DNA of 64,000 nt, taken from NCBI RefSeq assembly GCF_002160145.1, contig NZ_NFKA01000007.1:1-64000 (forward strand). The letters are read 5' to 3'. The DNA is from Gemmiger sp. An194 (GTDB lineage: Bacteria; Bacillota; Clostridia; Oscillospirales; Ruminococcaceae). Below are positions 12,891-16,469 of the stretch, piece by piece. Position numbers and translations under genes: made by a program. Each line of letters opens with the position of its first letter. Positions within the stretch are counted from its first letter, which is position 1. The notes under the pieces are model-generated. The model saw only the letters and a program-made list of their open reading frames with translations, was not told the DNA's origin and searched no databases.

Positions 12891-12920
12891 TTGACCTTGC
12901 CACCGGAAAACTGGTATAGT
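12891..12920 (+). promoter_or_regulatory. Promoter of riboswitch 1
   Basis: TTGACC (12891-12896), 18 bases, TATAGT (12915-12920), placed just before the riboswitch aptamer and after the ABC operon. Confidence 0.7.
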
Positions 12921-12924
12921 AAAG

Positions 12925-13059
12925 CCAGTTGAAAAGGGAGTAGTTGCAAGTCGCTTCGTCAACAGCACGGCAAATGCCTGGCGAAGCGGGCCGGTTTGCT
13001 CACAGCGCGGTAACAAGACTTTTCGGCACAGTGTTTGCTGTGCCGAAAGGTCTTTTTTT
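12925..13059 (+). ncRNA. yybP-ykoY (Mn2+) riboswitch 1
   Basis: Matches the yybP-ykoY plan: AAAAGGGAGTAG at the 5' side (L1 loop), TTCGTCAACAGCACGG, a CTGGCGAAGC return strand, and TAACAAGACTTTT closing (L3 and P1). P1 would pair GAAAAG (12931-12936) with CTTTTC (13019-13024). That same 3' strand opens a strong terminator hairpin (13015-13052, then seven T), so ligand binding and termination exclude each other. Known members sense Mn2+ and permit read-through. The gene controlled here is the predicted kinase at 13103. Confidence 0.88.
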
Positions 13060-13102
13060 ATTGCCGGGCCGGGGGCGGGTCAAACGGAAAGGAGGCAGAG
13101 CA

Positions 13103-13618
13103 ATGGCCACAATGTATCTGATGGTGGGAATTTCCGGCGCGGGCAAGACCACCTGGGCCAAAACCCGGCTGGCCGGGGCGGAGTACATCGGGTCGGACGG
13201 CATCCGCATGGAGCTGTTCGGCAAGGAGCTCACTTTGAAGGGGTACCACCGGGTACACCGGATCATGAACCAGCGCATGCGCGCCGCGCTGGAGCAGGGC
13301 AGAGACGTGGTGGTGGATTCGGTGCATCTGTCCCGCCGGGCGCGGCGGCGGGTGCTGCGGGCGGTGCCTCAGGGGGTGCGCTGTGTGGCGGTGTGGATCG
13401 ACACCGGCGTGGTGCAGGCCATCCGGAATGATGCCTGCCGTCAGCGGCATGTGCCCTTCTTTGCCATCGCTCTCATGCGCCGCCGTCTGGTGGAGCCGAA
13501 AAAGGAGGAAGGCTTCCACGAGATCCGGCGCATCTCCTGGCAGGAGCGGGCGGAAAGCGCGGCATGGAAAAATGGCATCAAATATGAAAAAAATGAAAAT
13601 CCTGCAAAAATCACTTGA
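13103..13618 (+). CDS. Predicted P-loop kinase (polynucleotide-kinase-like)
   Basis: Small cytosolic P-loop protein of 171 aa of the AAA_33/Pnkp-like kinase type. Walker A is GISGAGKTTWAK (9-20); an SDGIR motif near 35 resembles the D-x-R of T4 Pnk-like kinases; VVVDSVHLSRRARR holds the Walker B-like strand; RQRHVPFFAIALMRR and EGFHEI form the lid. The acceptor (RNA, sugar or other) cannot be read from sequence. ATG 13103 follows AAAGGAGG; the longer open frame upstream is riboswitch. It is the only gene between riboswitch 1 and promoter 2, whose -35 overlaps its stop codon. Confidence 0.8.
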   Translation: MATMYLMVGISGAGKTTWAKTRLAGAEYIGSDGIRMELFGKELTLKGYHRVHRIMNQRMRAALEQGRDVVVDSVHLSRRARRRVLRAVPQGVRCVAVWIDTGVVQAIRNDACRQRHVPFFAIALMRRRLVEPKKEEGFHEIRRISWQERAESAAWKNGIKYEKNENPAKIT

Positions 13619-13643
13619 CGGGGCCTGCCTGCCGTGGTATAGT
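13615..13643 (+). promoter_or_regulatory. Promoter of riboswitch 2
   Basis: TTGACG (13615-13620), 17 bases, TATAGT (13638-13643). The -35 overlaps the kinase stop codon (13616-13618). Nearly the same design as promoter 1. Confidence 0.7.
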
Positions 13644-13646
13644 TAA

Positions 13647-13797
13647 CCCAAGTTGAAAAGGGAGTAGTTGCAAGCCGCCTTGTCAACATCACGGCCTCAA
13701 AAGGGCCTGGCAGGGTGCGCCGCTTCTTAATGAGTCGGTAACAAGACTTTTCGACAGCAACGCTTTGCGCGTGCTGTCGGGAAGTCTTTTTTCTTTT
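13647..13797 (+). ncRNA. yybP-ykoY (Mn2+) riboswitch 2
   Basis: Second copy of the aptamer: TTGAAAAGGGAGTAG, CCTTGTCAACATCACGG, a TGGCAGGG return strand and TAACAAGACTTTT. Compared with copy 1 the P3 stem changes on both sides (GCTTCG/CGAAGC against CCTTG/CAGGG) while pairing is kept. P1 pairs 13655-13660 with 13747-13752, competing with a terminator (13743-13788 then TTTTCTTTT). It precedes the P-type ATPase, a classic target of this riboswitch class. Confidence 0.9.
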
Positions 13798-13856
13798 GCG
13801 AAAAAAGACTTCCCGCCGGGTGAAACGGGCAAACTAGGAAAAAGGAGAATGAACGT

Positions 13857-16469
13857 ATGGAACAAACTTATTTTGACAAAACTGTTCCGCAGGCCCTGGA
13901 GCAGGTAAAGGCCACCGCGGACGGTCTGTCCGCTCAGGAGGCCGCCCGGCGGCTGGAGGAGCACGGCCCCAACCAGCTGGCGGAGGGCAAAAAGAAAAGC
14001 CCGCTGGTGGTATTCCTGGAGCAGTTCAAGGACCTGCTGGTCTTTATTCTGGCTGTGGCCGCGGTGATCTCCATGGTGTCCGGCAATGTGGAGAGCACGC
14101 TGGTCATTTTTGCGGTGCTCATCATGAACGCGGTGCTGGGTACCGTACAGTACCTGAAGGCGGAAAAAAGCCTGGAAAGCCTGAAGGCTATGTCCGCTCC
14201 GGTGGCTAAAGTCCTGCGGGACGGCGTGCGCCAGGAGGTGGCAGGTCCCAAGGTGGTGCCCGGTGACATCGTGTACCTGGAGGCGGGCGACCTGGTGGTT
14301 GCCGACGGCCGTCTGCTGGAGTGCTACTCGCTGAAGGTGAACGAGAGCTCGCTGACCGGTGAGTCCGAGGCGGTGGAGAAGACCGCCGACGCTCTGCCCG
14401 CGGGCAAGACCGCGCTGGGCGACCAGAAGAACATGGTGTTCTCCGGCTCGCTGGTCACCTACGGTCGCGCAGTCATGCTGGTCACCGGTACCGGTATGAA
14501 CACCGAGCTGGGCCACATCGCCGAGCTGATGAACCAGACCCAGCAGCGCAAGACCCCCCTGCAGAAGAGTCTGGATGATTTCTCCGGCAAGCTGGCGGCG
14601 GCCATCCTGGCCATCTGCGCGCTGGTGTTCTGCCTGTCGCTGTTCCGCAGCGGTATGGGTGTGCTGGACTCCCTGCTCTTTGCCGTGGCTTTGGCGGTGG
14701 CCGCCATTCCCGAGGCGCTGAGCAGCATTGTGACCATCGTGCTGGCCATGGGCACCCAGAAAATGGCCCGTCAGAACGCCATCATCAAGGAGCTCAAGGC
14801 GGTGGAAAGCCTGGGCTCGGTGCAGGTGATCTGCTCGGATAAGACCGGTACCCTGACCCAGAACAAGATGACCGTGCAGAAGATCTGGGCGGACGGCAAG
14901 CTGGTGGAGGCGAAGGAAGCCGACATGAGTGACCCGGCCCAGGAGCTGCTGATGAAGATCGGCCTGCTGGCCAGCGACGCCACCGTGGATGTGGCCAGCG
15001 GCGCTTCGGTGGGCGACCCCACCGAGATTGCCCTGGTGAACTGGGGCGGCATGCATCAAACCGATGCAAACAGTGTACGCAGTCAGTTCCCCCGCCTGGG
15101 CGAGCTGGCCTTTGATTCCGACCGCAAGCTGATGAGCACCCTGCACCGGGTGAACGGCAAACCCATGCTGCTCACCAAGGGCGCCATGGATGTGCTGCTG
15201 GCCCGTTCCGAAAAGCTGCTCACCGCCAAGGGCGTTGTGCCTCTGACCGATGAGATGCGCACCGCCATCGCCCGGGCCAACGAGGAATTTTCCGAAAACG
15301 GCCTGCGCGTTCTGGCCTTCGCCTGCCGCGAGATGGACGCGGAGCGGGAGCTGACCCTGGAGGACGAGAACGGCTTCACCTTTGTGGGTCTGGTGTCCAT
15401 GATCGACCCGCCCCGTGAGGAGAGCAAGCAGGCCGTGGCCGACGCCAAGCGCGGCGGCATCCGCACCGTGATGATCACCGGCGACCATAAGGTCACCGCC
15501 ACCGCCATTGCAAAGCAGATCGGCATCTTTGAGGAAGGCGACATGGCTCTGGAGGGCGTGGAGCTGGATGCCATGACCGACGACGAGCTGGACGAAAAGC
15601 TGACTCGCATCTCGGTTTACGCCCGCGTTTCTCCCGAGCATAAGATCCGCATCGTCTCCGCCTGGCAGCGCAAGGGCTGCATCGCCGCCATGACCGGCGA
15701 CGGTGTGAACGACGCCCCCGCCCTGAAGAAGGCGGATGTGGGCGTGGCCATGGGCATCACCGGCACCGAGGTAAGCAAGGACGCCGCCGCCATGATCCTG
15801 GCGGACGACAACTTTGCCACCATCGTGAAGGCTGTGGTGAACGGCCGCGGCGTGTACACCAACATCAAGAACGCCATTCAGTTCCTGCTGTCCGGCAACA
15901 TGGCCGGTATTCTGGCGGTGCTGTACGCTTCGCTGATGGCTCTGCCCGTGCCCTTCCAGCCGGTGCACCTGCTCTTTATCAACCTGCTCACCGACAGCCT
16001 GCCCGCCATTGCCCTGGGCATGGAGCCCGCCCGCAAGGGTCTGCTGGACCAGAAGCCCCGCGACCCCAAGGCCTCCATTCTGGATAAGCCCCTCATGTTC
16101 AAGATCCTGTGGCAGGGCGCGCTGATCGCCATCGCTTCCATGACTGCCTTCTATCTGGGGCTGTCTGCCGGCGGCGCTGCCATGGCCAGCACCATGGCCT
16201 TCGCCACCCTGACCCTGGCCCGCCTGTTCCACGGCTTCAACTGCCGCGGCACCGAGTCCATCTTCAAGCTGGGCCTTGGCAGCAACAAATATTCTCTGAT
16301 GGCCTTTGCCGGCGGCGTGGTGCTGCTGGTGGCCGTACTGATGATCCCGGTGCTGGAGAGCCTGTTCGCAGTCACCGCCCTCAGCGGTATGCAGTACCTG
16401 CAGATCCTGGGTCTGGCCTTCGCGCCCACCCTGCTGATCCAGCTGGGCCGTGTGATTCGCGGCAAGTAA
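13857..16469 (+). CDS. P-type cation ATPase (P2, calcium/manganese type)
   Basis: Membrane cation pump of 870 aa. It has the N-terminal actuator region (SLTGES), the phosphorylation site CSDKTGTLT with D328, MITGDHKVTA and the hinge motif TGDGVNDAPALKKADVGVAMG. The membrane segment VAAIPEAL is the P2A M4 motif (PEAL; SERCA has PEGL). Family members export Ca2+, and several also Mn2+. The Mn2+ riboswitch directly upstream argues for manganese efflux in excess metal; this is inferred. RBS AAAGGAG precedes the ATG. It ends convergent with greA at a shared terminator. Confidence 0.92.
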   Translation: MEQTYFDKTVPQALEQVKATADGLSAQEAARRLEEHGPNQLAEGKKKSPLVVFLEQFKDLLVFILAVAAVISMVSGNVESTLVIFAVLIMNAVLGTVQYLKAEKSLESLKAMSAPVAKVLRDGVRQEVAGPKVVPGDIVYLEAGDLVVADGRLLECYSLKVNESSLTGESEAVEKTADALPAGKTALGDQKNMVFSGSLVTYGRAVMLVTGTGMNTELGHIAELMNQTQQRKTPLQKSLDDFSGKLAAAILAICALVFCLSLFRSGMGVLDSLLFAVALAVAAIPEALSSIVTIVLAMGTQKMARQNAIIKELKAVESLGSVQVICSDKTGTLTQNKMTVQKIWADGKLVEAKEADMSDPAQELLMKIGLLASDATVDVASGASVGDPTEIALVNWGGMHQTDANSVRSQFPRLGELAFDSDRKLMSTLHRVNGKPMLLTKGAMDVLLARSEKLLTAKGVVPLTDEMRTAIARANEEFSENGLRVLAFACREMDAERELTLEDENGFTFVGLVSMIDPPREESKQAVADAKRGGIRTVMITGDHKVTATAIAKQIGIFEEGDMALEGVELDAMTDDELDEKLTRISVYARVSPEHKIRIVSAWQRKGCIAAMTGDGVNDAPALKKADVGVAMGITGTEVSKDAAAMILADDNFATIVKAVVNGRGVYTNIKNAIQFLLSGNMAGILAVLYASLMALPVPFQPVHLLFINLLTDSLPAIALGMEPARKGLLDQKPRDPKASILDKPLMFKILWQGALIAIASMTAFYLGLSAGGAAMASTMAFATLTLARLFHGFNCRGTESIFKLGLGSNKYSLMAFAGGVVLLVAVLMIPVLESLFAVTALSGMQYLQILGLAFAPTLLIQLGRVIRGK

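Follow-up and report, generated by a model that had tools for sequence, protein, structure and literature searches.

Two successive leaders of the yybP-ykoY riboswitch class precede a putative PNK-type kinase gene and a metal-efflux ATPase gene in Gemmiger sp. An194

Organization of the locus

The window, i.e. the whole stretch of 64,000 nucleotides analyzed here (contig NZ_NFKA01000007.1 of Gemmiger sp. An194), contains a kinase gene and an ATPase gene, each with its own leader. The following features were identified.

12891 to 12920, plus strand: promoter-like pair 1, sigma-70-like, read from the sequence (TTGACC at 12891-12896, 18-nt spacer, TATAGT at 12915-12920)
12932 to 13060, plus strand: leader 1, yybP-ykoY-type (Mn2+), aptamer plus terminator, 43 nt upstream of the kinase ORF
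12932 to 13023, plus strand: yybP-ykoY-type aptamer copy 1 (kinase leader), 98.6 bits and E 1.4e-26 in its own genome with the R1 model described below
13015 to 13059, plus strand: intrinsic terminator 1, predicted hairpin of -29.4 kcal/mol followed by 7 T; the P1 3' strand lies within its 5' arm, AAGACUUUU
13090 to 13095, plus strand: strong Shine-Dalgarno sequence AGGAGG of the kinase gene
13103 to 13618, plus strand: 171-aa P-loop kinase (AAA_33, PNK-type), PF13671 E 5e-20, with a fold match to Clostridium thermocellum Pnkp
13615 to 13643, plus strand: promoter-like pair 2 (TTGACG, 17 nt, TATAGT), read from the sequence, its -35 element TTGACG overlapping the kinase stop codon
13656 to 13751, plus strand: yybP-ykoY-type aptamer copy 2 (ATPase leader), R1 109.4 bits; RF00080 13.6 bits, partial and below the cut-off
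13743 to 13788, plus strand: intrinsic terminator 2, hairpin predicted at -30.6 kcal/mol, followed by a T-run; here too the P1 3' strand lies within the 5' arm
13857 to 16469, plus strand: 870-aa PMR1/SERCA-like Ca2+/Mn2+ P-type ATPase, TIGR01522 E 1.2e-202 and TIGR01116 E 2.6e-193, both scores lying under the curated equivalog cut-offs

The second leader (13656-13788) is located directly downstream of the kinase gene and upstream of the ATPase gene, and only 37 nt separate the kinase stop codon from aptamer 2 on the same strand. The two leaders are homologous (69–81% identity), and a fixed 15-base aptamer string occurs exactly twice in the window versus 0.11 times expected from shuffling. The original prediction described the first half of this locus correctly, including a promoter belonging to the leader and a terminator competing with P1, both of which are present; it missed the second leader and the ATPase. 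Low-score microRNA matches in the window were rejected as hairpin coincidences.

A near-perfect 16-bp inverted repeat spans 13775-13816, in which GAAAAAAGACTTCCCG, immediately downstream, is an alternative partner for the 3' arm of terminator 2. The ATPase leader could therefore form a further hairpin. The repeat was seen in the leaders of genomes G002, G001 (imperfect) and G004, and is absent from G006.

A divergent branch of the yybP-ykoY class

At its gathering score (45 bits) the Rfam model RF00080 matches nowhere in the window. In a permissive search, copy 1 was without match up to E 10 and copy 2 gave 13.6 bits over the core. However, none of the 391 genomes of the class Clostridia reaches this cut-off, which therefore does not separate members from non-members here, and the poor score is not evidence against the leader. 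A covariance score had been proposed as the test of the aptamer: with RF00080 it is indeed poor, which on the terms of that proposal would refute the aptamer, but this criterion says little here, and homology is carried by a purpose-built model. This model, R1, is a covariance model of 20 pairs built from leaders of this genus and two relatives, and it matches 46 of the 298 genomes of the family. Since R1 was trained on copy 1 and related leaders, independent support must come from the recovery of RF00080 loci and from covariation. Sub-threshold RF00080 matches (E <= 0.001, 20-40 bits) are present in 30 of the 391 class genomes, upstream of MntP, GDT1/UPF0016, exchanger, P-type ATPase and similar genes. 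R1 independently recovers 20 of these 30 loci at the same places (best E 3e-11), and both models match over their full length the leader preceding a GDT1 gene in G062:C68 and that preceding mntP in G102:C7. Judged by its sequence, the leader is a divergent, sub-threshold branch of the yybP-ykoY class, and this branch shows that the RF00080 cut-off misses the riboswitch class in Clostridia. Annotation of the riboswitch with RF00080 is probably badly under-called in this class, where sub-threshold hits precede typical Mn2+ export genes.

Covariation was evaluated on 38 distinct leaders, and 14 of the 20 aptamer pairs have changed on both sides. The number of cells changed on both sides was 127, versus 30 in shuffles and 11-26 in slid-partner controls. 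Fitting the alignment to the structure biases the result in its favour, but the excess is large. Standard pairs make up 94% of the pair cells, and in P1 97.9% of cells are paired. A hand-written structure, examined again against controls, gave the same covariation result on 12 close sequences. RNAalifold on a plain MAFFT alignment gave only P4, because P2 is misaligned there.

The aptamer is closed by P1 and has the conserved core of the class, with GGGAGUAG in L1 (37 of 38 distinct leaders) and CAACA in L3 (38/38). The extra L1-side hairpin of typical yybP-ykoY members is absent from this branch. Homology (R1), covariation and conserved core bear out the aptamer announced for the kinase leader. 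In an ungapped alignment with the L. lactis sequence, CAACA contains a nucleotide that we take to be the counterpart of the Mn2+-sensing A41. The numbering agrees with the published one (PMC9190785). The residue is conserved, and selective Mn2+ binding might occur through this adenosine.

The kinase

The 171-aa protein matches PF13671 with 72.7 bits (cut-off 27, E 5e-20). With TIGR04075 (bacterial Pnkp) it gave 36 bits against a cut-off of 750, a weak match over the kinase domain only, i.e. the protein is not a full three-domain Pnkp. Its nearest solved relative is C. thermocellum Pnkp. The AlphaFold model (pLDDT 78, with an unreliable tail at residues 155-171) matches the kinase domain of this enzyme with Z 21 and an rmsd of 2.0 over 153 residues at 22% identity, whereas the fold matches to gluconate kinases and PFKFB are well below (Z 14-15). 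The P-loop residues G9 and S11-T17, as well as D32, R35 and D72, are invariant in alignment A5, even among relatives of only 26-34% identity, and D32 and R35 align with the D-x-x-R of Pnkp. P-loop, DxxR acceptor motif and fold are those of a PNK-type P-loop kinase (AAA_33), so that sequence (PF13671, aligned residues) and structure agree with the Pnkp-like kinase that had been predicted. Given the fold match, the invariant P-loop, D32, R35 and D72, and the alignment with the Pnkp motif, phosphotransfer by this protein is likely. The nearest structural precedent for its acceptor, not an established one, would be a 5'-OH polynucleotide. The dN/dS values, 0.12-0.16 among the four closest species and 0.25-0.37 versus the fifth, indicate purifying selection.

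An RNA- or nucleotide-repair role had also been put forward. It is not supported by a search for RtcB and Pnkp-family proteins: the genus encodes neither RtcB nor a full-length Pnkp, and apart from the kinase domain itself there is no match to the Pnkp family. None of the defence-system models matched. Elsewhere in the same genome (G000:C45, L008 586-1800), a 404-aa protein appears to join an AAA_33-type kinase with a SAM-dependent methyltransferase, the domains being assigned by eye.

Conservation and gene context

The order leader-kinase-leader-ATPase is kept in five of the seven species of the genus (Gemmiger/Fournierella). The riboswitch-kinase order, sought in related genomes as had been proposed, thus recurs in four other species; named kinase-bearing relatives are Gemmiger sp. 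An87, Gemmiger sp. An50 and Fournierella massiliensis. The promoter-like pattern upstream of copy 1 is the same in all five kinase-bearing species, and the ATPase leader is present in all seven genomes. In the two remaining species, the same upstream ABC gene is followed in contiguous sequence by one leader and then the ATPase gene, the kinase being absent at the site. Three of the five kinase-bearing species have an MFS-like transporter gene and not the ABC gene on the upstream side (identified by eye from the translations). As this neighbour varies, the kinase-ATPase pair is the conserved unit, and the second leader and the ATPase place the kinase inside a metal-efflux locus.

To survey the next genes outside the genus, we took the longest ORFs within 700-900 nt; families other than ATPases were named by eye and grouped by BLAST. 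The kinase is the next gene after none of these 85 leaders (46 R1 and 39 further RF00080 leaders), and no leader of this kind lies close to the distant relatives of the kinase. The next genes encode mostly P-type ATPases, the others being mainly MntP, GDT1/UPF0016 and exchangers (Na/Ca). P-type ATPases, MntP, GDT1/UPF0016 and Na/Ca exchangers form the known target set of yybP-ykoY riboswitches. The branch and copy 2 are thus found in a context of metal export and membrane metal proteins, copy 1 being the exception. The kinase is a new target of this riboswitch class, new in everything searched here, and the expectation of an unusual target was right.

Other unusual next genes, also named by eye, are tRNA-guanine transglycosylase-like (L071), flotillin-like (L092) and HtpX-like (L098). 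In another class genome, two almost identical yybP-ykoY aptamers (L121, 1548-1630 and 1958-2040, both on the minus strand) precede a GDT1/UPF0016 gene. They are spaced about 410 nt, and the interval contains no more than a degenerate short ORF.

Duplication of the leader could have put an unrelated kinase under the metal switch. The gene would then be metal-regulated as a passenger, its activity unconnected with metal stress, which is quite conceivable although we lean against it. Restriction of the pairing to one genus, the two species with ABC gene, leader and ATPase only, the lack of kinase after the 85 other leaders and the homology of the two leaders would all fit such an origin. However, five species have kept the kinase with its own intact leader and terminator, dN/dS is low among the closest four, and the kinase always adjoins the ATPase although the upstream neighbour changes.

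Proposed switch mechanism

In all 35 related leaders checked, the P1 3' strand forms part of the 5' arm of the terminator, which agrees with the competition with P1 anticipated originally. The terminator stem begins with (A/G)AGACUUUU, whereas loops and upper stems vary among leaders; pairing persists. This is the layout of the L. lactis switch, in which Mn2+ blocks the terminator by stabilising P1.1 (PMC11087558), and it suggests that the switch here would be ON with metal. By homology, this mechanism can be considered well founded. The kinase gene would be transcribed as a unit of its own, controlled by a dedicated yybP-ykoY-class riboswitch of the Mn2+ type. The aptamer would fold as RNA polymerase leaves promoter 1. 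Abundant metal would bridge the L1 (GGGAGUAG) and L3 (CAACA) loops and keep P1 (AAAAG/CUUUU) closed, so that CUUUU would be barred from the terminator hairpin and the kinase gene transcribed. At low metal, AAGACUUUU would pair downstream and transcription would stop. The second, homologous switch would act likewise on the ATPase gene immediately downstream, and excess metal would induce the efflux pump and the PNK-type phosphotransferase together.

From homology, anatomy, covariation, conservation and synteny, we consider it likely that a Mn2+-induced PNK-type kinase is co-regulated with a metal-efflux ATPase, both via yybP-ykoY-class switches. Mn2+ would then be the ligand, acting in the ON direction, and the kinase would be active and physiologically linked to the metal response.

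The ligand may not be Mn2+ alone, since another member of this family, the mgtA aptamer of S. pneumoniae, also binds Ca2+ (PMC9495176). This makes Ca2+ a live alternative for a yybP-ykoY relative with changed ligand. The ATPase scores best as a Ca2+ pump of the PMR1/SERCA type and the L1-side hairpin is missing, both in line with such a change. We nevertheless regard it as rather unlikely, because the same branch precedes genes of the manganese-export families MntP and GDT1, and CAACA, with the nucleotide presumably equivalent to Mn2+-sensing A41, is invariant.

It is improbable that the main purpose of leader 1 and its promoter is a higher or sharper ATPase output, achieved by readthrough of an incidental kinase gene. 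The common strand, the 37 nt to aptamer 2 and the order kept in all five species are compatible with this. However, as both leaders come with a promoter and a terminator of their own, readthrough from promoter 1 would also have to clear the second switch, and the kinase gene has a strong Shine-Dalgarno sequence and is under purifying selection. That the fold is due to chance and the hairpin a plain terminator of the upstream gene, as the lack of an Rfam match over the cut-off could suggest, can be dismissed almost entirely given the covariation, the family-wide recurrence upstream of metal-transport genes and the promoter lying between the upstream gene and the leader.

Possible significance of a kinase in the regulon

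A known riboswitch class, in divergent form and duplicated in series, would here regulate a new kind of target. The Mn2+ riboswitch regulon serves to recognise manganese-homeostasis genes. A conserved PNK-type kinase in this regulon would add a soluble enzyme to a set of transporters, and would point, in a way that can be tested, to the molecules damaged or modified when manganese is in excess. One can speculate that this kinase acts on 5' ends of polynucleotides, i.e. that metal overload turns on a nucleic-acid end-processing enzyme together with a pump via two serial Mn2+ riboswitches, but we hold this to be doubtful. The interesting question at this locus is what role the kinase may play.

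Comparison with known systems

The closest parallel for the leaders is the Mn2+ riboswitch of L. lactis yoaB (PDB 4Y1I; PMC9190785, PMC11087558), which has in common with them the GGGGAGUAG-type L1 and CA L3 loop motifs, the P1 switch helix, the terminator overlapping the P1 3' strand and, for copy 2, a P-type ATPase target. In contrast to yoaB, the leaders described here have no separate L1-side hairpin and score below the Rfam cut-off, copy 1 has a kinase as target, and two leaders are in series. The S. pneumoniae mgtA Mn2+/Ca2+ riboswitch (PMC9495176, PMC11434433) is likewise a yybP-ykoY leader upstream of a Mn2+/Ca2+ ATPase, and reportedly binds Ca2+ tighter than Mn2+ (PMC9495176); it is a single leader, with no kinase mentioned in these descriptions, versus two leaders and a kinase in Gemmiger. 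With the C. thermocellum Pnkp kinase domain (PDB 4gp6, 4jst, 4mde) the kinase has in common the fold, the P-loop, the aligned D32 and R35, and D72, but it is a stand-alone protein of 171 aa without phosphatase or ligase domain. According to a 2022 review, Mn2+ riboswitches have not been found in tandem (PMC9481103). Leaders in succession on either side of a gene differ from a tandem inside one leader, but represent a related layout that can be searched for.
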